A stretch of DNA of 47,490 nucleotides, from positions 1 to 47,490 of IMG/VR virus record IMGVR_UViG_3300046692_000604, one strand, 5' to 3'. Positions 4,184 to 18,790 of the stretch are shown here, one piece after another. The notes beneath the pieces are model-generated. The model made no database searches and had not been told where the DNA came from. It saw only the letters and a program-made list of their open reading frames with translations. Each line of letters opens with the position of its first letter. Within the stretch, counting starts at the first letter, position 1. A program made the translations under genes and the position numbers. This stretch comes from a virus.

Positions 4184-4834
4184 ATGTCCAAGAATTATCA
4201 TCCGCCCGTATATGATGCTCAAAGATTCACATGTCCACATTGCATGGCCTACTCATCCATGGACTGGGCAGCATCAAACTCAGGAAAGTACCCTCACAAA
4301 TACGTAATGATGGCCGTCTGCCAAGGCTGCGATGATTTCAGTCTCTGGGTCCGTACTGATGGAAACGCGCCTAAATTTACGTTAGGGCTAATTTCCATGG
4401 ACTACCAACTCGTATTTCCAGCGGTTTCTCAGGCACCGATACATGAAGAGAATATGCCCGAGGATATTAGGATCGATTTCGAGGAAGCTCGGCAGGTATT
4501 CGGCTCATCCCCCCGGGCCGCAGCTGCATTATTACGACTCTGCGTGCAAAAACTATGTCATCACCTTCTCGGAAAGAAAGGCGACATCCACAAACAGATT
4601 GGCGAGCTTGTAGACCAAGGGCTCCCCCCGCGCGTGCTGAAGGCGTTTGACACCATCCGCATCTTCGGAAATGAGTCTGTACATCCCGGGACCGTAAATC
4701 TCAACGACTCACCAGAAGTCGCCTTAGCGCTTTTCAGCCTATTGAACATGGCAGTTCGTCATTGCATCACCGAAGAAAAGGAGTTGGAGGCCATCCGGGC
4801 CCTCACTCCTGAACATAAACGCCGCGAAATTTAG
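4184..4834 (+). CDS. DUF4145-like protein, cargo gene
   Basis: This 216-residue protein has an N-terminal zinc-binding-like part (CPHC at about 18-21, CxxC at 45-48 in VCQGCDD). A DUF4145-type helical domain follows, with FEEARQVFGSSPRAAAALLRLCVQKLCHHLLG and IRIFGNESVHPG. DUF4145 occurs in restriction and other defence proteins and is related to HEPN-type helical bundles, so a defence role is plausible but unproven. It starts at ATG 4184 after GAGAG, opposite to the late genes, and is followed by a second cargo gene 68 nt on. GC content is lower than in the phage genes. Confidence 0.65.
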   Translation: MSKNYHPPVYDAQRFTCPHCMAYSSMDWAASNSGKYPHKYVMMAVCQGCDDFSLWVRTDGNAPKFTLGLISMDYQLVFPAVSQAPIHEENMPEDIRIDFEEARQVFGSSPRAAAALLRLCVQKLCHHLLGKKGDIHKQIGELVDQGLPPRVLKAFDTIRIFGNESVHPGTVNLNDSPEVALALFSLLNMAVRHCITEEKELEAIRALTPEHKRREI

Positions 4835-4902
4835 TCAAAACGATTCTTGTTGGGACGATAGGCAAGGACATCTGGCTGAATCACTAAGATTGGAGTAGAG
4901 CT

Positions 4903-5667
4903 TTGAAGGGAAGTATCAAGCGCACAGCATCCCAGCTCTTTAAAGAATTCAGCGTTCCTCTATTTGCTTCCATTGCGTGGACAGCATACGTCTTGGATGA
5001 CATGACTGTTCAATCCATTGGTGCGAATTTCGGTGGTGCATTCTTTTTTGCCAGCTGGATGACAGGGCAGTTTTTCAGAGTGCGTAAGCAAGCTGGAGTT
5101 GAAAGCAGCCTGTCTATGCTTGAGAGCAGAGTCAGTCATGTAGTTTCTCAACTGGAGACGCAGACACAGGAGCTCACCAGTCACATGAACGGCGGCAATA
5201 GCTTCTGCGCATTTAGCATCAACCTACAAGGTACTGATCAATCCTATTGGCTTGCTGAAATCCACGGCAAATACCCAATGTACAACGTGTCCGCAAGAGT
5301 CATTGACCTTGATCTCTATGATGAAACGAGTAGCGAGCCGCAGAGGGAAGGTGCGGAAACCTACATCGAGATAGGAGACCTTTCGCTCAACAGCGCCCAT
5401 ATATCAAAGCTATTTGAGCTTGGTAATAGCGGTTCTCGCAGATTTAATGTGTTTATTCTTGCCAAGAACGGGGTGATTGTTCAAAACATAAAATATAAGT
5501 TGGTTGATGGTGAGTGGACCTGGGCTACCAAGGTATTCGATGATTCTGGCGAGTTGGCAAGGCAAGATCATAATTTCCCACCGGATGACGTGGGCAACAT
5601 CTGGCCCGTTAATGCTGATGATGGTTTGAGTTCCCCTCGGTATCCAATATCGCACCGCTGGAATTGA
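4903..5667 (+). CDS. Membrane protein of unknown function, cargo gene
   Basis: This 254-residue protein begins at a TTG with GGAG seven bases upstream; the first in-frame ATG is 31 codons later and would remove the first membrane segment. Two hydrophobic stretches (FSVPLFASIAWTAYVL, about 16-31; GGAFFFASWMTGQFF, about 44-58) suggest a 2TM anchor. A coiled-coil-like segment (SSLSMLESRVSHVVSQLETQTQEL) and a soluble beta-rich C-terminal domain of ~170 residues follow. The layout resembles sensor or effector proteins of defence systems, but I do not recognise the family. Its last 59 nt overlap the 3' end of gene V on the opposite strand. Confidence 0.6.
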   Translation: MKGSIKRTASQLFKEFSVPLFASIAWTAYVLDDMTVQSIGANFGGAFFFASWMTGQFFRVRKQAGVESSLSMLESRVSHVVSQLETQTQELTSHMNGGNSFCAFSINLQGTDQSYWLAEIHGKYPMYNVSARVIDLDLYDETSSEPQREGAETYIEIGDLSLNSAHISKLFELGNSGSRRFNVFILAKNGVIVQNIKYKLVDGEWTWATKVFDDSGELARQDHNFPPDDVGNIWPVNADDGLSSPRYPISHRWN

Positions 5668-6231: not shown

Positions 6232-7263
6232 TTAATGGGTGGCGATGCGGCTGACTGATTGGCTTACGGTGTAGCCGGTGCGGGTCATGCGGTGTTGTGA
6301 GGATGTGATGAGGTAGTGGCCACCGAGTTTTCCTGCTGCGACCAGGGTGACGACGTTGCCGCTGACCAGGTTAGGCCGGCCCATGGCTGACCAGTTGCCG
6401 GTGGTGCGTTCGCGGTTGGCTTGGGCCAGTTGGGCTTGGGCTTTTGCTTTGGATTCTTCGGTCGAGGCGCTGCGTTTTCGGCTTTTTTGGGTGTCACCGC
6501 TGGTGGTGGTTTTGCTCATGCTGCTGGGTACCGCGACGGTTTGGTTGTTTTCGATCTTGTAGGTCACCAGTGTTTTTGTGGCGGGGTCTTTGTGTTTGAC
6601 CTCGACGGCGTGGGGCACGTTTTTGATTTGGTCGCGTAGGTTCACATTGCTTAGGTCCTGGAGTACCAGCGTTGCCACTGGCGCCGCTTTGGCTAATGTG
6701 CTGATGGCATGGAAAACCATGCGATGGCCGGTGATTTTGAAGGCGTAGTCGTACTCGGCTGCCAGGTTGCGCAGGAAGGTCAGGTCGGTGTCTTGCTGGG
6801 TCAGGCGGTCGAGTGGGATGGGTTGGACGGTGCCGATCAGTTGTAGGCCCTGGCGTGCGGCGATCTGTTGGGCGATGGCCTGCAGCGTGGTGTTTTCATA
6901 GGCGTGGTGTGAGGGTGTGCGCAGCGCCGCTTTGATGCCGGTGGCCAGGCCATGGATGGTGATGGTCGAGGGTGGGCCGTTGAGTTCGACTTCGTCGATT
7001 TCGAAACGGCCAAGGGCGCGCAGTGGCTGACCTTCCCAGCCCATGGACAAGGTGAGGCTGTCGCCATGGCCTGGGTACCACTGATCACGCCATTTGCCTT
7101 CGGTGTCTTCCAGTTCGACGGCCAGGCTGTCGGCTTGACCGGTGAGATAGTCGTCATAGGACACCGAGTGCAAATGCTGGCTGACGTTACGGGTGATGTT
7201 GTGCTGTTGATAGGTCAGTACGAAGCGCGCTTGCGGTACCTGGGTGGGGATTATCGCATCCAT
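6232..7263 (-). CDS. Phage late control/tail hub protein D
   Basis: This 343-residue protein is a gpD/gp45-type tail hub protein at the tail-baseplate junction. Typical segments are YDDYLTGQADSLAVELEDTEGKWRDQWYPGHGDSL, FEIDEVELNGPPSTITIHG, and LRTPSHHAYENTTLQAIAQQIAARQGL. The C-terminal part (SRKRSASTEESKAKAQAQLAQANRERTTG) is the charged linker seen in this family. The ATG at 7263 overlaps the stop of tail protein X by 13 nt. Confidence 0.9.
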   Translation of the reverse strand: MDAIIPTQVPQARFVLTYQQHNITRNVSQHLHSVSYDDYLTGQADSLAVELEDTEGKWRDQWYPGHGDSLTLSMGWEGQPLRALGRFEIDEVELNGPPSTITIHGLATGIKAALRTPSHHAYENTTLQAIAQQIAARQGLQLIGTVQPIPLDRLTQQDTDLTFLRNLAAEYDYAFKITGHRMVFHAISTLAKAAPVATLVLQDLSNVNLRDQIKNVPHAVEVKHKDPATKTLVTYKIENNQTVAVPSSMSKTTTSGDTQKSRKRSASTEESKAKAQAQLAQANRERTTGNWSAMGRPNLVSGNVVTLVAAGKLGGHYLITSSQHRMTRTGYTVSQSVSRIATH

Positions 7264-11326: not shown

Positions 11327-11579
11327 CTGCGGCTGCCATTTCCCGCAACACCTCGGTGGCGAGTTTGGAGTCGGCTATGTCGAACTCGCCGAGGTCTTCC
11401 AAGGTGATGCCCAGCATCTTGGCCACCAGCATGTCTTCCATCACGCCTTCGTCTTTGGTCGTTGCCTGCGCGGCGGTGATGTCTTTGCGTTTGAGGCGGG
11501 TGATGGACAGGTTTGTGAGGGTGTCGCCGCTGGCGCTTTTGAAGGGGAATTTGAGGGTGAAGCTGAGTGTGTCGGCCAT
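11265..11579 (-). CDS. Phage tail assembly chaperone (gp41-like)
   Basis: This 104-residue protein (MADTLSFTLKFPFKSASGDT, then LTNLSITRLKRKD, then MLVAKMLGITLEDLGEFDIAD) is a gp41-type tail assembly chaperone that binds the tape measure during tail assembly. GGAGC lies seven bases before the ATG. The last ~20 codons overlap the extension frame, consistent with a frameshift fusion. It is the first gene of the third late block; the late motif is 63 nt upstream and a 7-kb cargo island lies beyond. Confidence 0.85.
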   Translation of the reverse strand: MADTLSFTLKFPFKSASGDTLTNLSITRLKRKDITAAQATTKDEGVMEDMLVAKMLGITLEDLGEFDIADSKLATEVLREMAAAGDVAAILGRSTAAGPAPAAV

Positions 11580-11642
11580 TGTGGGTGCTCCCGGTGGGGT
11601 TGCTCTTTGAGAGCCCTGATGATGTCGACTGTGGCAGGCACT

Positions 11643-11665
11643 GGCTTTTAATCGGATTTAAAGAG
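11643..11665 (-). promoter_or_regulatory. Putative late promoter/activator site B
   Basis: The minus strand reads CTCTTTAAATCCGATTAAAA then GCC, matching the sites at 4106, 24346 and 39601. It is 63 nt upstream of the tail chaperone and directly beside the cargo island. This is where late transcription would need to restart if the terminator at 18755 stops reading after the tail tube gene. Confidence 0.65.
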
Positions 11666-11725
11666 AGGATCCGGGTTGCATTGGAACCTGTTAACCAGAC
11701 CCGAAAACACAAGGAAAATGGATTT

Positions 11726-12019
11726 ATGAGTGAGTCAAACAGAGAAAAATTTAACGATCTGATTGATAAAGTAATGAGCTTATTAATCGACGCTTGCCCG
11801 GTGTACAGAGGCATCGGGCCGGAAGATTTTGGCTTCCCAAAAGGCGAGACAGACCCTGAATCTTTCTACTACATCCCTGCGGCAGAGGAGGCATTTTTAA
11901 ACGACTGTATTCAGTGGCTTAAGGATGAAGAGCTTATCCGTGGAGAACACGAATACGTAGCGACCAGCTACGGCTTGGAAATGTTTAACAGCTTGCCTGA
12001 CTGCTTAAAAACGAACTGA
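11726..12019 (+). CDS. Small cargo protein, paralogue of the 12300 gene
   Basis: This 97-residue protein (MSESNREKFNDLIDKVMSLL...) is of unknown function. It aligns with the first ~100 residues of the protein at 12300: FN.L, PV, DF, then F...I.WL.D...I.RGE, a T, and GLE..N.LP.CL. The pattern suggests an alpha-helical domain followed by a small winged-helix-like part. The ATG at 11726 follows AAGGA at about 11 nt spacing. It is first in a three-gene + strand cassette and has lower GC than phage genes. Confidence 0.6.
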   Translation: MSESNREKFNDLIDKVMSLLIDACPVYRGIGPEDFGFPKGETDPESFYYIPAAEEAFLNDCIQWLKDEELIRGEHEYVATSYGLEMFNSLPDCLKTN

Positions 12020-12025
12020 TTGCAT

Positions 12026-12057
12026 GCGCTCGTTCCCGGCTCTGTGGGAACGAGCGC
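12026..12057. terminator. Perfect 12-bp hairpin between cargo genes
   Basis: GCGCTCGTTCCC (12026-12037) pairs with GGGAACGAGCGC (12046-12057). Only CCCC and TTCATG follow, so it is at best a weak intrinsic terminator; it may instead stabilise or process the mRNA between two cargo genes. Confidence 0.5.
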
Positions 12058-12094
12058 CCCTTCATGAACTAAAGCGAGAAGATCGGAGACCGTA

Positions 12095-12298
12095 ATGGAA
12101 GACGAACTCACCATTGAAATCGACGGTGTGCAATACACCGCACTGTACAGCGTATTTGGCGACACATTGACGGTATCGTTACCTGATGAGAGCCAGCGTT
12201 ATACGGAGCTTCGCGGGCTTAACCCCATCAGCGCAGCAAGGGTCCATTTGCGCGCCTACGTGGGCAGTGTTACGAAACAGAAAAAGCAGGAGGTTTAG
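12095..12298 (+). CDS. Small acidic cargo protein
   Basis: This 67-residue protein (MEDELTIEIDGVQYTALYSV, ending SVTKQKKQEV) is beta-rich at the N-terminus and basic at the end. No family is recognised. The GGAG of the next gene's ribosome-binding site falls in its last codons, and its stop is 1 nt before the next ATG, so the two are very probably co-translated. It could be a partner or antidote of one of the flanking paralogues. Confidence 0.55.
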   Translation: MEDELTIEIDGVQYTALYSVFGDTLTVSLPDESQRYTELRGLNPISAARVHLRAYVGSVTKQKKQEV

Positions 12299-12299
12299 C

Positions 12300-12737
12300 A
12301 TGTCGGCACCCAATATTGAGCGTTTTAACGCATTGGCTGGCGCAATTTTCGCCAAGCTTTATGAGGAGTTTCCGGTCCCCGTTGAACTCTCTGCTCACGA
12401 CTTTGCTGACCAGATGATTGCTTCTGACGCTCCTCGATTTCTCGACCTGCGATTTTTTACCTCAACCGTTATATGGCTGGGTGATCATGGCTACCTGAGC
12501 AGGGGGAACGCTGTAAGCAATGGCACGGTTTTGAATTGCTCGTTAACTGCTCGCGCTTTGGAATTGCTCAACGCACTACCTTCTGCCCTTGAAAACAAAG
12601 GCACTTCCTTGGGTGATGAGTTGATCAGTGCAACGAAGGAAGGGTTGACCGGAAAGGTCAAAGAGCTCGCGTCTGACTTCTTAAGTAAAGCCGTTGTTTT
12701 TGGCACCAAAGCCGCGACCGAATGGGCAACTTCCTAA
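12300..12737 (+). CDS. Cargo protein with paralogous N-domain plus C-terminal helix
   Basis: This 145-residue protein shares its first ~100 residues' layout with the protein at 11726 (IERFNALAGAIFAKLYEEFP; FTSTVIWLGDHGYLSRG; TARALELLNALPSAL). It adds a ~45-residue C-terminal tail (LGDELISATKEGLTGKVKELASDFLSKAVVFG) that looks amphipathic or membrane-interacting. The ATG at 12300 has a strong AGGAGG. Function is unknown. Two paralogues flanking a small acidic gene suggest one functional cassette. Confidence 0.6.
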   Translation: MSAPNIERFNALAGAIFAKLYEEFPVPVELSAHDFADQMIASDAPRFLDLRFFTSTVIWLGDHGYLSRGNAVSNGTVLNCSLTARALELLNALPSALENKGTSLGDELISATKEGLTGKVKELASDFLSKAVVFGTKAATEWATS

Positions 12738-12795
12738 ACCCGGCCCAGCGTTAGCCTGGCTATGGTTACAGTAGCGACCATTGAGTGGTTCTTGT

Positions 12796-12823
12796 ATAGC
12801 GAGGGCGCAAGCGCCCTCGCTAT
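12796..12823. terminator. Strong bidirectional hairpin between convergent genes
   Basis: A perfect 13-bp stem, ATAGCGAGGGCGC (12796-12808) with GCGCCCTCGCTAT (12811-12823), has a 2-nt loop. It lies between the convergent genes ending at 12737 and 12835 and probably terminates both, although no clear U-tract follows. Confidence 0.6.
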
Positions 12824-12834
12824 CCGTCTGGCTA

Positions 12835-13203
12835 CTACCCAGGCTTGTGGTTATCCAGTACACGATTGACCGCTAACTCACCCAACATGATGACCCGTTG
12901 CAGCACCAGCATCGTTTGGCGTCGTGGGCCGTCGGTCAAGTCGGTGAGATCGTTGACCATGGCGCTGGCGGATGCCAACGATTCGCAGGCCTCGACGAGC
13001 AACGTTTCGTCATCCACCGCTGCGTCGATGGTGAAAATGGTGCTGGGCTTGCGGGGCGGTATCTGCGTTTTCGACACCCCGGGGTCGAGGTAGAAGCTGA
13101 GTGCGCGGTCGGCCGCCTCTTTCATTTTCTTGGGGTCAAGATCAAGAAAGGCGTCGTAGGGTAACGGACTGGTATTCGGGGGGTTGGGCGTAACTTTGAA
13201 CAT
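12835..13203 (-). CDS. DUF6124 family protein, copy 1
   Basis: This 122-residue protein begins MFKVTPNPPNTSPLPYD and is a clear paralogue of the one at 30057 (MFKVTPNPPDTDPISPYEPD): both have KK(M/L).EAA(D/E)RAL, a divergent middle, ETL and a C-terminal VMxxEL(A/T)xNRxLD-like helix. The DUF6124-type family is common in Pseudomonas and has no assigned function. The gene follows the ~320-nt structured leader (13204-13525) shared with copy 2. GGAG lies 9 nt before the ATG. Confidence 0.75.
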   Translation of the reverse strand: MFKVTPNPPNTSPLPYDAFLDLDPKKMKEAADRALSFYLDPGVSKTQIPPRKPSTIFTIDAAVDDETLLVEACESLASASAMVNDLTDLTDGPRRQTMLVLQRVIMLGELAVNRVLDNHKPG

Positions 13204-13525
13204 AGATGAAACTCCGATGCAGCTTAATTGGAGCCATCACCATCTCGCTACCAAACGGAGGGTGGCGGCCATACGGAGGTTGGTAGACCGGGCATCGGAA
13301 CCGGCGCCCCCGGAGGAGCCCTACGCATAGCCACCATAAAACCGCAGCCCTGGGAAAGGACCGCCAAAGGTGACGCTTTGCGTCGATGCTACGGGTCTAC
13401 CAAACCCGATCACTGTTTTTCAGTGACAGGGAAACGATATAGCCCGCCCCACAGCCGCACAAGCCGGCGAATTCTGGCGCACGCGTAGGTAATGGCGCAA
13501 GGTGTTGTAGCCGTTAGGACGTAAC
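13204..13525 (-). promoter_or_regulatory. Conserved structured leader of DUF6124 gene, copy 1
   Basis: Read on the minus strand, this aligns with 29737-30056. Conserved blocks include GTTACGTCCT, GCTACAA.ACCTTGCGCC, TGCGCCAGAAT.CGCCGGCTT, two adjacent hairpins (TCACTG-AAAAA-CAGTGA and CGGGTTTGGTAGACCCG, 13391-13427) and GCGCCGG. TTTGGTAG occurs in the second hairpin's loop and again at 13247-13256, and its complement CTACCAA lies between them at 13279-13288. In copy 2 all three elements have changed together to TTTAGCAG/CTGCTAA. This points to RNA pairing that is either alternative or loop-loop. Whether it is a 5' leader or an independent RNA is unknown. Confidence 0.65.
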
Positions 13526-14204
13526 AGCGGGTGTCTTTAAACGCGTACGTTAAACGCGTGAAAGCTTTCCAAAGATCGAGGAAGCGTCCAACATTTTTCT
13601 GGGGGCGCGACCTTACCCGCTGGCCGCTTTAAATCCTGCCGGACTCGCGTGGCGACGTAGTGTTTTTGAAGAGGTTTTGGTAGGCGGATGCCGGATTGGT
13701 CACCGGCTGATGGGGACGACGCTGATCGCTACGGCGCTCCCTTTGAATGGAACCGTGCGGGGGTGAAAAAAGATGGTAACTGTACGCCGGTAATGGGACC
13801 GAGTAGGAGCTTTGCAATGCCGGCTTGCCCGAGGGCACCCGGCGTACAGTTACGATCAAAATCAGGCATGGAGCTGCCTGTCCTGTCAAAGAGGCATGTA
13901 CAACTTAACGTGCTACGGGCTGCTCCGCCCGGTCACTGCGAGTGGTGACGGGAGACAAGATACCGGTGAGCTTACAGGTGCGCAGCCGGGGGATTCTGTA
14001 GCCGATGTAGGCGATTACGCTGGGTGTTGTAGCCTTCCGAACTCACGCTGAGAGGCGCTGAATACTGTCCTACGACGAGTGAGCATTATCAAGTTGTAAG
14101 CCCGTCCTTCAGCGCCCGCCACTTACTTGCTTTCGGCAGAGATCTTTTTTAAGGAAGCTTTTCGGACATGGATATACTTGATCTGAACCTATTCACATGG
14201 ACGA
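13526..14204. other. Non-coding region with decayed third leader copy and a 15-bp inverted repeat
   Basis: On the minus strand 14050-13910 resembles the other two leaders: GGCTACAACACC, CCTAC, CAGAAT, CCGGCT, then GTCAC..GTGAC and CGGGC-loop-GCCCG hairpins. The loop (GGAGCA) is not complementary to the CTACCAA found further on, so this copy seems decayed. No DUF6124 gene follows, only a 46-codon frame at 13729-13869 (MPDFDRNCTPGALGQAG...). A perfect 15-bp inverted repeat, GTAACTGTACGCCGG (13776-13790) with CCGGCGTACAGTTAC (13839-13853), frames 48 nt inside that small frame. I see no other convincing gene here. Confidence 0.5.
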
Positions 14205-15779
14205 ATGATGACCGCCGCCGCCGATGCCGCAACAACTGAAATTCTCCGAGCTCAAGCATTCGCTAAGCTTCGCTCTGAGCTCACCAAAGATATTGCTTTG
14301 ACCGCAAATGTAGCTACCGGCTGCGGTCTTTGGGATCTTTTACGATTGTGCTTTCTGCTGAGAGTCACCCGAATGCTCAGCATGCCTGTTCCCGGTGCTG
14401 AGAAATTGAGTCACGCGGCACAGGTTTCCTTGGATCTGGGCAGTGAGTCCCTGAAATACGCAATCGCGTTGGTAGCAAAGCACGGACAATGGTGTGATGA
14501 CACCTCTGCGGACAAACCTCTTGACGGGTTTGACAACAAACGTGTTAACGCCATTTTCCAATATACGCGGCATATCAATACCAAGTTCGAAACCGAAATT
14601 GTTTTGCACTTCGCGAACGTGCACCTTGTAGGGGACCGTGGCCAGAACTGTATGGTCGACTATGCCGCTGGCCTTAATGATCCGCGGCGTACAGAGTACT
14701 TGCGTTACGGATTGCGTGTTGAGTCTGCATCAGGAGGAAACGACGGTATCGTTCCAATAATTGACCTGATGAAAAAGCTTCATGACGAGTACTCGGACGT
14801 CGCAGATTTGTTTGCAGCCGCTACGGGGGTCACCCTGGAGGTCTATTGTAAAGGAATGCTTGACCTACATGCTGCGCTTGTTGCGCGTCTGCAGGAAGCT
14901 GAAGGTAGATGCGGTCTCCATGAAGGTGGCGGCGTAGATCTAACGCACGCGGAGTCTTTCATCGCCATTGCGAAAGCTATGTTGTTCACAGACTCAGAAT
15001 TGGAAGCCGCATTCAGTCCAGAGTTCGTGACCTACCTGCGTGATCATCCTTTTGACAGAACTGCTTTCAGCGACACTGAGCTGCGATTCCATTATTTATC
15101 CAGGCGCCCTTTCTTATTTGGTGAAGGCTTCGCCATTTTCAGCCCTGAGCTAATCTTCGATAGTGTCTTGGGCAATGCGCATTTTACCTTGCTAGAAAGC
15201 CCTGTAGCTAAGGCCAAGTACATGGAGCGCAGATCGGCCCAATTCATAGATAAAGTGGCGATGGTCGCCGCGGGTGCTGGTTATGAGGAGGTGGATCGGG
15301 AGTTTGACTTGAAGGAAGGCAGGTACGACATAGGAGACATTGACCTGATTTTGCGCCATCCAAAAACGGGGCACACTATATTGGTTGAAGGCAAGGGCCA
15401 TTCATTGCCCCTTCCTGTCTATTTTAGGGTGCCAGATGCTGTTGACGAGCATGTGAAGCGTACCCGAGACTGGGAAAAGAAGGTTCAGCGCAGAATCGAT
15501 CATCTCAAAGGTAGCTCTTCAAGCTACCCCATCCCAGGAGCTTGGGATTATGTAATCGTCACTCTTATGCCGGAGCCGCTTTCGCAGCGCACCCCCTTAT
15601 TGGTACTCAGCATCGATGAGTTCAAGTGCTGGTTAGATCAGGATCCACGGCCAACTGTTTTTGCTGACCTTTTTAGTGTTTTTTATGATCGTGCAAAAAC
15701 GCCTCTCTCTATGGCTGAGTTGCAGGAGCTCCAGGAAAGTGGTTTTACTCTGATCGGTCCGAACTCGCCTCCTGAGTAA
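14205..15779 (+). CDS. Large cargo protein with PD-(D/E)XK nuclease-like C-domain
   Basis: This 524-residue protein has an all-helical N-terminal ~330 residues of no recognised family. The C-terminal domain (about 345-440) has the order expected of a PD-(D/E)XK nuclease: a helix (FIDKVAMVAAGAGYEEVDREF), IGDIDLIL with Asp378/Asp380, then ILVEGKGHS with Glu395-x-Lys397. This is the fold of many restriction and defence nucleases. It lies in the cargo island upstream of the tail chaperone. Starts at 14205 or 14208 are equivalent; the ribosome-binding site is weak. It is a plausible stand-alone anti-phage effector, but the substrate is unknown. Confidence 0.65.
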   Translation: MMTAAADAATTEILRAQAFAKLRSELTKDIALTANVATGCGLWDLLRLCFLLRVTRMLSMPVPGAEKLSHAAQVSLDLGSESLKYAIALVAKHGQWCDDTSADKPLDGFDNKRVNAIFQYTRHINTKFETEIVLHFANVHLVGDRGQNCMVDYAAGLNDPRRTEYLRYGLRVESASGGNDGIVPIIDLMKKLHDEYSDVADLFAAATGVTLEVYCKGMLDLHAALVARLQEAEGRCGLHEGGGVDLTHAESFIAIAKAMLFTDSELEAAFSPEFVTYLRDHPFDRTAFSDTELRFHYLSRRPFLFGEGFAIFSPELIFDSVLGNAHFTLLESPVAKAKYMERRSAQFIDKVAMVAAGAGYEEVDREFDLKEGRYDIGDIDLILRHPKTGHTILVEGKGHSLPLPVYFRVPDAVDEHVKRTRDWEKKVQRRIDHLKGSSSSYPIPGAWDYVIVTLMPEPLSQRTPLLVLSIDEFKCWLDQDPRPTVFADLFSVFYDRAKTPLSMAELQELQESGFTLIGPNSPPE

Positions 15780-15818
15780 CCTGACGGAGATAAGCCGGTG
15801 ATGTTTTTAATTTGAGGA

Positions 15819-15878
15819 AGGCAACCGCCTTGTAGTTCGGCTAATAATGCTAGACAGCCATCTGCAATGCGGTTGCCT
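15819..15878 (+). repeat. 10-bp inverted repeat upstream of membrane gene
   Basis: AGGCAACCGC (15819-15828) is repeated inverted as GCGGTTGCCT (15869-15878), framing 40 nt. It falls between the nuclease-like gene and the proposed start at 15907, so it may be a weak terminator or an mRNA leader structure. Confidence 0.35.
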
Positions 15879-15906
15879 ATCTATACCTTTTTTGAGAGTG
15901 AAACGC

Positions 15907-16722
15907 ATGCAGCGCCTGCGAAAAAAAAAGCTTACTGAAGAAAAGCCTGATATCCCCAAGAACCATACGAATAAAAATATTCACCCAAGCAATATGGATG
16001 TTTGGCTTTCTCGGCTGAGCCACATCTCTCAATTTGGTCTTTTTGCGCTCACCATAGGTGCGCTTTATTTTACCGTAATACCTCTGTACAAAACCGCGGC
16101 TTTAGAGGAAAGCATCGCACGTCGTGAGTCAGAGTTAAGCGCGACAAATGCGAAGCTTGAAGCGGCAACTGCTGCGCTTGTAAAGGTAAAACTTGAAATC
16201 TACGAGCGTAATAGGCACGATTTGGTTAAAGGCATAATTTCCGCGGCACCACTCTGCTCAGGGCTCATGGAGCCACCGCGTGCTCTAGGCTCAGATACGA
16301 GCAATCATTATGCAGAAAGCTTACTAAGGGTCGACGCAGGCCAATGTTTACAGGACGCGTTTCAAGGAAGTAACGCCGAAACGAAACTCACACCCGACGA
16401 CCTTTCTAATCTAAAAGGAGCTATCGAAACCATCTTGACTAACCTAGCGCAGATGCAGAAACAGGCATCGCTTGAAATAGACTCTGTTCCAGAGCTAGCT
16501 GCAAAAGATCCGTCCATTTTGGTTACAGAAGGATCAGAGATAGAGGACGTGAATCGTTTGGATAGGCTAATTAACGGAATTGCACCTAGCTTTATTAACG
16601 AGAGTATGAAGTTACAGGTCGCGATAGATAGTGCGCGCAGTAAAATTTATTTTGATTTCTCCAAGGCCGTCGTCAACGAAATTCTTAAGCTTAGGGATTT
16701 GGATTGGCCAAAAAACAAGTAG
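15907..16722 (+). CDS. Single-span membrane protein with coiled coil, cargo gene
   Basis: This 271-residue protein has a basic N-terminus (MQRLRKKKLTEEK), one membrane span (about 44-63, ISQFGLFALTIGALYFTVIP), a coiled coil (LEESIARRESELSATNAKLE) and a soluble helical C-domain of ~180 residues with two cysteines. I chose the ATG at 15907 because GAGAG precedes it; an in-frame ATG at 15847 has no ribosome-binding site. No family is recognised. It converges with the gene ending at 16788. It may partner the upstream nuclease-like protein. Confidence 0.55.
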   Translation: MQRLRKKKLTEEKPDIPKNHTNKNIHPSNMDVWLSRLSHISQFGLFALTIGALYFTVIPLYKTAALEESIARRESELSATNAKLEAATAALVKVKLEIYERNRHDLVKGIISAAPLCSGLMEPPRALGSDTSNHYAESLLRVDAGQCLQDAFQGSNAETKLTPDDLSNLKGAIETILTNLAQMQKQASLEIDSVPELAAKDPSILVTEGSEIEDVNRLDRLINGIAPSFINESMKLQVAIDSARSKIYFDFSKAVVNEILKLRDLDWPKNK

Positions 16723-16787
16723 AATCTATGCATCCAACCACTTTCTGGCTAACGGCGTAGCTGTTTGGCGGAGCGCCACGCTCGACA

Positions 16788-17816
16788 TTAAAGATAAACT
16801 AAATCGGCGTAATCTTTCATTGAACCTACGGAGAGAAACAACGGTTCTAAATTTGTCGAAATAGGACGGCGTGGTCGAAATGCTATTCTAAACTCCTTCT
16901 GGTAGGCATAGCCGAAATGCTTGGCCATCTCAGGAATCTTAAATTTTGTATAGTCTCGATACGGGTCATAATAAATAACCTTTCCCACCATAGGTTCCCA
17001 ATCAGCAAAACGAGCCAAGAAGGTGGAAATTAGGCGCTGATTGAAAATCTGTGGGTCTCTGATGACGATGGCAGCATCAGCATCAAAGTCCGTTGGCATC
17101 CGATAGTGAATATGTTCACAAAGGCTGAAGAGATAGTAGTCGTTGTAAATTAGCGGTAGAACGATGTCATCATTGGAGAATTCAAGCCGATTGCCCTGAA
17201 AATCAATATGAGTTTTACCCGCAAGTCTTTCCCTATACGTCGGAATGAAAAACGTTCTACTGGTTTCATCGTCACGAACGGCATCGAGTAGTCCCGCATC
17301 ATTGTATAAGCCAGCGTTGGCTAATCGCAGATTGCCTGTTTGAAACATTGGTTCAAGAAATTCGCGCTTCCCGTATTTGACTAGAACCGGCGAGGTTGGA
17401 GGTTTGTAGCCTTCAAACAATGTTATCCCGGTAGGCGTGCCATGCTCGAAATATTTGAAGAGGGGGGCTCGCGCAGATTGAATAATATCACTCGGTGGCA
17501 TGCCATCTGCCCTAGCCCCATACTCTTCTAACATATGTGTGAATACTTGCATGAACTCATCGGTTTCCGCCATTGGCACAGGGCAGAGCGTGCCCTCTGG
17601 CCCGATTTCCATTACGTTCAGGAATATATTTCGAAAGCGTTCTGCCACTCGATCTTCTGACGCTCCTAACAAATATGGGCGCGCCAGATAATCGTGACGC
17701 CATACCTCATGGCGCGCCAAGCGAGTGGGCTGCGCCGACTTCCATTCAAAATACTGTCGACGTTGATCAATTTTTGAAAAGCGCTGGCGTAGCTGGTCCA
17801 AATTAACCTTGATCAT
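16788..17816 (-). CDS. DUF2971-like cargo protein
   Basis: This 342-residue protein has a segment (VLVKYGKREFLEPMFQTGNL, then RLANAGLYNDAGLLDAVRDDE) and a late KHFGYAYQKEFRIAF motif. Both resemble DUF2971-type proteins, where a conserved N-D pair and a C-terminal K..y.yE.EFR are seen. Such proteins occur near defence genes and may be ADP-ribosyltransferase-like, but that is inference. The ATG at 17816 has no strong ribosome-binding site. It is the only minus-strand gene in the middle of this island. Confidence 0.5.
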   Translation of the reverse strand: MIKVNLDQLRQRFSKIDQRRQYFEWKSAQPTRLARHEVWRHDYLARPYLLGASEDRVAERFRNIFLNVMEIGPEGTLCPVPMAETDEFMQVFTHMLEEYGARADGMPPSDIIQSARAPLFKYFEHGTPTGITLFEGYKPPTSPVLVKYGKREFLEPMFQTGNLRLANAGLYNDAGLLDAVRDDETSRTFFIPTYRERLAGKTHIDFQGNRLEFSNDDIVLPLIYNDYYLFSLCEHIHYRMPTDFDADAAIVIRDPQIFNQRLISTFLARFADWEPMVGKVIYYDPYRDYTKFKIPEMAKHFGYAYQKEFRIAFRPRRPISTNLEPLFLSVGSMKDYADLVYL

Positions 17817-18205
17817 AGGTAAATTGCAGCCTAATAGAAGTGTTTCGTGATTCGTTGCCAGCGTTGCTTTGGCAGACCTTGCAATTCGGCATCAGAAGGT
17901 AAGGTGTCGATAACACCCGCTCATAATCAATTCGTAGGCGGGCTATTGAGATGATTCCGGCGCTTCTTTGAGCATGCCACCCAAATAATGTCACGTTTTT
18001 AATCAGCTGAGCTAGTCTCTGGGCTACTCAACCACCCACACGTAAAAAATCACGTCATTATGGGTATCAGCTCACTCGTTCCCCCTTCACGGCCCTAGCA
18101 CCTTAGCTGCGTATTACGTTTTTAAAAAAACTCAAGGTTCAATCAGGGGACTGCCCGTTTGATGCCTTTTTTGTTTAGACCGTTCACTACTCCAGGAAAA
18201 TAATC
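17817..18205. other. AT-rich intergenic region, no gene seen
   Basis: This ~390-bp gap between divergent genes must hold the promoters of the DUF2971-like gene (minus) and the repeat protein (plus). I see T-rich tracts (TTTTTAAAAAAA near 18120; CTTTTTTG near 18166) but no repeat matching the late motif and no convincing reading frame. Confidence 0.5.
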
Positions 18206-18577
18206 ATGCCTAGGCCGGTAATTCCAAACATGAAGTTGTGGCCGCGTAATTTAAGCACCCGACAAGGTGGTGGCTTGTCCACCTCTCAGTATGGTGGCAT
18301 GTCAACGTCACAATATGGAGGCATGTCGACTTCGCAGTACGGCGGCATGTCCACATCTCAATATGGAGGTATGTCCACCTCACAGTACGGAGGTCTATCC
18401 ACCTCACAGTACGGTGGCCTCTCAACATCTCAATATGGTGGGCTGTCCACCTCGCAGTACGGCGGTCTGTCAACGTCTCAATACGGTGGCCTATCGACGT
18501 CGCAGGGAGGTGGTTTGTCTACATCCTCAAATAATGTCTATACGAGCAATATTCCACCTTGGCCGGTTTGTTCGTGA
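18206..18577 (+). pseudogene. GG[ML]STSQY octapeptide-repeat protein, C-terminus frameshifted
   Basis: The frame encodes 123 residues: a short leader (MPRPVIPNMKLWPRNLSTRQ), about ten tandem octapeptides GG[ML]STSQY, then YTSNIPPWPVCS and stop. In the +1 frame directly after this the sequence continues FVRELEARGYRAQADLIRQH...ENFFNY to 18668, which reads as the natural continuation of IPPWP. One missing or extra base near 18567 explains the break. AGGA lies 9 nt before the ATG. Repeats differ mostly at synonymous positions, which suggests selection on the protein. I recall similar GGG-L-ST repeat proteins ending in IPPWP plus a helix, of unknown function. Confidence 0.7.
18266..18529 (+). repeat. 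Tandem 24-bp coding repeats (about 11 units)
   Basis: Eleven 24-bp units encode GG[ML]STSQY, with the last two degenerate (QGG, SSNN). Neighbouring units differ at many third positions (GGTGGC, GGAGGT, GGCGGT; TCAACG, TCCACC), so they are not recent slippage copies. Confidence 0.85.
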
Positions 18578-18668
18578 GCTAGAGGCTCGGGGTTATCGAG
18601 CACAAGCTGATTTGATCCGCCAGCATTTACCAAATTTTTTATGGCCTGAAAATTTCTTCAATTATTAA
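18578..18668 (+). pseudogene. Detached C-terminal helix of the repeat protein
   Basis: In the +1 frame from about 18565, GRFVRELEARGYRAQADLIR then QHLPNFLWPENFFNY ends at TAA 18666-18668. It has no start of its own and completes the repeat protein across a one-base shift. Confidence 0.6.
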
Positions 18669-18754
18669 ATGGCGAAGAATTAATTGGTCGCATCTGGTAT
18701 CGGATACGCTGAGTTGCATCGGCATACACGGACTTATGGTTTTGCCTTGGCCTG

Positions 18755-18780
18755 AAAAGCCGCTTTCAGAGGCGGCTTTT
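18755..18780. terminator. Bidirectional terminator after tail tube gene
   Basis: AAAAGCCGC (18755-18763) pairs with GCGGCTTTT (18772-18780), giving an A-tract/stem/T-tract hairpin on both strands. On the minus strand it lies 11 nt past the tail tube stop and should end the second late operon. Confidence 0.8.
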
Positions 18781-18790
18781 GCGGGTTAAA

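Follow-up and report, generated by a model that had tools for sequence, protein, structure and literature searches.

Comparison with described repeat families and defence systems

The ALTTAQ repeat of Pfam (PF20080) is likewise periodic by octads and shares an L[ST]T[AS]Q core with the protein described here; proteins of the STSQ type score 82 bits (the window protein) and 44 bits against its profile, for which the gathering cut-off is 26.4, and the YTGP/STGP copies tested (L042, L041 and L036) give no match. ALTTAQ names a repeat unit only and no function, whereas the present family adds a WPRN head, an SNIPPW linker, a helical tail and a fixed number of eleven units. Bacterial ice-nucleation proteins also carry octad or 16-residue Gly-Thr-Ser repeats resembling the family array; however, the proteins have no Pfam match to that family, their array is short and fixed, and their hosts are not cold-specific. 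HeliScrew4 (PDB 9zem), whose chain of 120 aa is built from L[ST]P[ED]Q-like octads, is weakly similar to the repeats (E 0.02-0.19), but its octads favour helix and lack glycine pairs, and the similarity is not significant; the searches turned up no description of it. The literature searched on octads, PF20080 and HeliScrew yielded nothing relevant.

As for defence systems, the repeat gene lies directly upstream of Gabija, on the same strand, at four divergent loci, but most copies lie elsewhere, and to our knowledge the protein is not known as a Gabija component. The moron or hotspot defence genes of P2-like prophages (PMC9122126) resemble the family in their accessory position: some copies occupy a site by the integrase or portal/terminase genes of P2-like contigs, and the window copy sits between tail genes of a BcepMu-like phage. 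No named hotspot system containing the repeat protein was found in the searches made. The window protein matched 0 families of PADLOC-DB 2.0.0, and neither NCBIfam nor PHROGs, as searched, gave a convincing model for the family; a name in Pfam exists for the STSQ repeat only. Weak CARD-like and Neuro_bHLH matches were judged to be due to chance.

The repeat gene in the window

The window is the whole stretch of viral DNA analysed, 47,490 nt long (IMG/VR record IMGVR_UViG_3300046692_000604). According to its sequence and ORF list, the octapeptide-repeat ORF starts with the ATG at 18206, ends with the stop at 18575-18577 and encodes 123 aa, in the order MPRPVIPNMKLWPRNLSTRQG, eleven octads and NVYTSNIPPWPVCS. 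The features of the locus are as follows.

18206..18577, + strand: octapeptide-repeat protein ORF, frameshift-truncated, 123 aa, with an RBS-like AGGAAAA 5' of the ATG
18206..18268, + strand: N-terminal head MPRPVIPNMKLWPRNLSTRQG, in which WPRN is kept across the family
18269..18532, + strand: eleven octapeptide units GG[LM]STSQY, 24 nt each
18533..18565, + strand: linker NVYTSNIPPWP, where family copies are nearly invariant
18566..18570, + strand: frame-break region, 2 bases shorter than in intact relatives by nucleotide comparison
18567..18668, + strand: two-helix C-terminal module FVRELEARGYRAQADLIRQHLPNFLWPENFFNY, conserved in the family and here displaced to the +1 frame
11500..18790, no strand assigned: accessory region of 50% GC (57% elsewhere), inserted in a BcepMu-like phage with the tail-tube gene on one side and the tail-E gene on the other

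The array consists of ten GG[ML]STSQ units and a degenerate eleventh, GGLSTSSN, and was detected independently by Tandem Repeats Finder (period 24, 9.3 copies, 76% matches). An earlier note had described about ten GG[ML]STSQY units within 18206-18668; the array itself stands, with eleven units instead of ten, and 18668 is where the +1-frame tail ends, the ORF proper closing at 18577. The note's remark that the units vary mainly at third codon positions agrees with our counts: their mean DNA identity to each other is about 74%, with a mean third-position difference of 0.65-0.66 and an amino-acid difference of 9%. Since random synonymous codons would give a value of 0.67, the synonymous sites of the window units are saturated.

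The C-terminal helix was likewise correctly placed by the note in the +1 frame after IPPWP: FVRELEARGYRAQADLIRQHLPNFLWPENFFNY, at 18567-18668, matches the conserved C-terminus of relatives and is therefore not a chance open frame. When 34 loci from viral contigs and GTDB genomes were translated, PPWP continued into the tail without a shift in the relatives with an intact 3' end (L031 is cut or broken at its contig end, and L022 and L023 have divergent tails yet keep the frame), and none of these homologues stops at VCS, so that the break is local to the window copy. Nucleotide comparison showed the window to be 2 bases shorter than its relatives between the PPWP codons and the tail. Among the three causes that the note had offered, recent mutation and sequencing error remain, and the programmed shift is refuted for the family, no relative needing one; that the full protein is made in this phage by programmed frameshifting, as an intact and conserved +1-frame tail might suggest, is hardly credible when the relatives encode the tail in frame and the window is merely two bases short, and we reject it. 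Judged by these alignments, the break arose either by a sporadic deletion or through an error in the sequence. The deletion, if real, would be recent, because the tail peptide is still fully family-like, and the window copy, its tail lost by the two-base deletion (or sequence error), is probably inactive.

Family architecture and the number of units

Intact members of the family are about 110-170 aa long, and their hosts span Pseudomonadota, Cyanobacteriota, Bacteroidota, Bacillota and Actinomycetota among many phyla, although several of the matches are MAG contigs, for which the host label may be wrong. In an alignment of 28 intact copies, WPRNL, SNI..WP.F..E...RG and PEN are invariant. The plasmid search revealed a second subfamily with the octad GGG[LM][SY]TGP, which has the same SNIPPW linker and helical tail as the first, and when full-length members of the two are aligned, no gap falls within the eleven units. 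Exactly 11 units are present in 40 of the 50 copies counted, from Acinetobacter and Nostoc to Enterococcus, Bacillus and Clavibacter, and the other ten have 12, 10, 8, 8, 7, 7, 6, 6, 5 and 1. Single positions within the array are also distinguished: nearly all STSQ copies have Leu in unit 1, Met in unit 2, Ala or Met in unit 3, Met in unit 5, Leu in units 6-10 and Met in unit 11, and in the other subfamily, too, Ala is frequent at the third unit. The octad varies in concert in each lineage, as STSQY, STLQ, STMQ, STLK, STLR, STGPY, STGPG, YTGPG, HTGPG, SMGPG or STGAG.

Synonymous difference between the units of one array is 0.15-0.31 in Acinetobacter (0.15-0.23 in L072, L055, L057 and L014), while other arrays are saturated (0.66-0.73). 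In the earlier note, selection was thought to have kept the peptide while the DNA drifted, and repeats identical at DNA level in relatives were named as a finding that would speak against it. The first half of this view is upheld and the second only in part, because the arrays of some relatives (Acinetobacter) are nearly homogenised. We infer from these sequences that the arrays are homogenised time and again and then drift at synonymous sites, while selection maintains the number of units and the unit-specific residues.

The nearest relative, L002, is a viral contig that carries the repeat gene at the same junction as the window, beside the tail tube. At synonymous third positions, the window and L002 differ by 0.19-0.30 in the flanking late genes, by 0.38-0.41 in the unique ends of the repeat gene (small samples) and by 0.70, a saturated value, in the repeats; some process scrambles the synonymous sites of the array faster than those in the rest of the gene. 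Unit shuffling between the two as the cause of lost orthology was tested, and the result was not significant.

A few copies depart from the common architecture. One Acinetobacter-group genome has two copies (L074 and L075), with about 12 units and a single unit, respectively, and almost the same ends, and the pair looks as it might after a recombination collapse. A copy on a Paenibacillus plasmid (L037) is down to one unit, is unannotated and lies opposite a 753-aa ATPase-like gene. Another member (L064:4818-5285) carries what looks like a leader of the signal or lipoprotein type, and its octads vary (GGLYDGP, GGLYQGP), which suggests an exported offshoot.

Predicted structure

The AlphaFold2 prediction made with 38 sequences reached a pLDDT of 88.7 and a pTM of 0.83, and only two of the five models were that confident; by DSSP, the tail contains three helices and the repeats are free of strands. 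The prediction for a YTGP-type protein failed (42.6) apart from two of the same tail helices. Foldseek searches of PDB and BFVD gave no match (best E 0.95 and 0.77, respectively). AlphaFold2 has been documented to yield confident but unrealistic solenoids for repeat sequences (PMC11795689). Among these predictions, we trust the helical tail, whereas the model of the array is not trustworthy and speaks neither for nor against the beta structure with one repeat per strand that the earlier note had thought possible.

Phage setting and mobility

The accessory region of the window is about 7.3 kb long; at that place, Komp_PAO1_1, a related phage, carries no more than about 385 bp. The repeat gene lies between late genes, on the opposite strand, with deviant GC content, and is missing from Komp_PAO1_1; it is accessory cargo (a 'moron') of a BcepMu-like phage, here a prophage, and a frameshifted copy of a small mobile gene. 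The same cargo region contains a C4 antisense RNA, a phage immunity/antirepressor RNA (RF01695, 71 bits; 13258-13341, - strand). Adjoining the repeat gene, at 14205-17816, are three ORFs (524, 291 and 342 aa) with no convincing family match, possibly further uncharacterised cargo. At the window edge (1-838, - strand) there is an ORF related to one in L013 that resembles a DNA cytosine methyltransferase.

In P2-like phages, other copies adjoin the portal/terminase or integrase genes. The rolling-circle plasmid pJY33 (2,365 bp) has rep and the repeat gene as its only annotated genes, and further copies lie on other plasmids, those of Acinetobacter among them. In the superintegron of Vibrio campbellii (L040), the gene is situated between repeats of about 125 nt, at least six of which occur in 8 kb. 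Sites resembling attC were found on both sides of the gene in Acidovorax (L007) and on its 3' side in the Riflebacteria and Paraburkholderia contigs (L011 and L021), with scores of 49-64 against a background whose 99.9% point is 38 and whose maximum is 50, in alignments to attC reference sequences. A strict motif scan gave one site only, and reference alignment together with self-comparison was more productive; no attC-type site was found beside the window copy by alignment to the references. Some members, then, are flanked by attC-type sites in the manner of integron cassettes.

The tree of the family mixes phyla throughout. The Riflebacteria and Paraburkholderia copies are sisters (support 100/99), and their matching units have a synonymous difference of 0.28, which, if the Riflebacteria bin is correct, would indicate a transfer between phyla. 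Carried by phages, on plasmids and in integron cassettes, the gene moves between phyla. It is rare: it was found in 1 of 369 Gammaproteobacteria; in 6 of 149 and 3 of 349 genomes from the genera of the Acinetobacter and Pseudomonas matches, respectively; in 2 of 145 from the family to which the Nostoc match belongs; and in 3 of 325 from the class of L009, each count including the genome on which the search was centred. Neither the whole protein nor its tail by itself matched any phage record by tblastn, and a search of E. coli genomes was likewise negative. In L028, a direct repeat of 232 bp (90%; 4700-5000 and 6257-6488) brackets the repeat gene and an Ada-like regulator gene.

Neighbouring genes

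Gabija (GajA-GajB) lies directly downstream of the repeat gene, with gaps of about 130-750 bp, in L009, L011, L032 and L034. The four GajA proteins are so divergent (about 20-38% identical in partial alignments) that the pairings, in four phyla, are probably independent. If 15% of genomes carry Gabija, random adjacency can be estimated at about 4e-5 per locus, and four cases in about 35 loci are far above this rough value, even with a hundredfold concentration in islands. Six further loci came from sampled genome searches and were not selected by context. L094 has a CBASS-type pair, SMODS and SLATT_4, directly downstream of the repeat gene; in L095 it is followed by an Mrr-like nuclease and Cas9; in L098 it is preceded by a TIR gene, with a reverse transcriptase nearby; in L099 it adjoins GmrSD_N and FRG genes; and the full contexts of L096 and L097, both from Acinetobacter, contain no defence genes. 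Elsewhere, pAgo (L013), LmuB-like (L022), PDC-S06 (L027), RT_VI (L036), Abi_C (L019) and DUF4062 (L020) genes lie beside or near the repeat gene, and so do HNH and ImmA/IrrE-type genes.

By our own count, made without a matched control set, a defence-type neighbour is present at about 15 of about 37 non-phage loci, and the adjacency to defence operons recurs. Many loci have no recognisable defence neighbour, and an all-against-all comparison of neighbours revealed no universal partner gene, only Gabija and phage synteny being shared. Defence islands are, moreover, general sinks for mobile genes, which counts against a defence reading; we regard the adjacency as strong but not final evidence for a link to defence. 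In three Acinetobacter loci (L010, L014 and L096), a conserved ORF resembling a membrane protein follows the repeat gene.

Possible function

We give about an even chance to the reading, drawn from sequence and context, that the mobile gene encodes a self-contained accessory factor in conflict between bacteria and viruses (or between elements), most likely an anti-phage factor, of which the window holds a frameshifted copy. In a picture built on the unreliable array model, the protein would be a repetitive rod or scaffold inside the cell, with the head and the two-helix tail as its caps. Its array would present an eleven-fold Ser/Thr/Gln (or Thr-Gly-Pro) surface that might bind something periodic or present in many copies, and the fixed unit count would reflect a requirement for length or closure. 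The tail may engage a conserved partner that most bacteria share, which would account for a gene that travels without a fixed partner gene.

Alternatively, the gene may be counter-defence or addiction cargo, benefiting the mobile element by blunting a host system or by stabilising the element itself. Such elements accumulate in defence islands, and the copies on phages, the one on a 2.4-kb plasmid annotated otherwise with rep alone, and the RelE, HipA and ImmA genes that adjoin copies in Acinetobacter plasmids are all consistent with it. We nevertheless consider it rather unlikely, as a place that recurs directly before Gabija and CBASS-type operons would suit a defence partner better, and no conserved toxin or antitoxin partner was found. 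It is also not probable that the gene is an ordinary mobile passenger with an unrelated cellular role (in stress, the envelope, or cold or ice binding) that is found in islands by chance: its Thr/Ser/Gly-rich octads do resemble repetitive solenoid proteins in general, and several hosts are psychrophiles, but the hosts also include E. faecium from human blood, Weissella from kimchi and Clavibacter, no signal peptide is apparent by inspection except in L064, and unrelated defence operons adjoin copies. A structural role in the phage, as a tail or fibre component, is suggested by the adjoining tail-tube gene in the window and L002, but is very improbable and rejected as largely refuted, because the gene is on the opposite strand, with lower GC, within inserted cargo missing from Komp_PAO1_1, and most copies are on cellular contigs and plasmids.

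Returning to the anti-phage reading, a more specific form of it is that the family may represent a new class of mobile protein that acts autonomously in defence (or as the partner of a defence system), namely an eleven-octad rod of new fold with a two-helix tail. Such a protein would function in bacteria of very different kinds, either by itself or inserted before Gabija, CBASS and other systems, and the number of its units would be under strong selection. We put this forward tentatively, being more inclined to doubt than to assert it. If the link to defence holds, it would add a very small and widely portable gene that the defence and family libraries searched do not see. Tandem repeats ordinarily gain and lose units fast; that eleven units are held across phyla while the unit sequence shifts in concert indicates a strict requirement for length or closure, and makes the family a clean system for the study of selection on repeat number.
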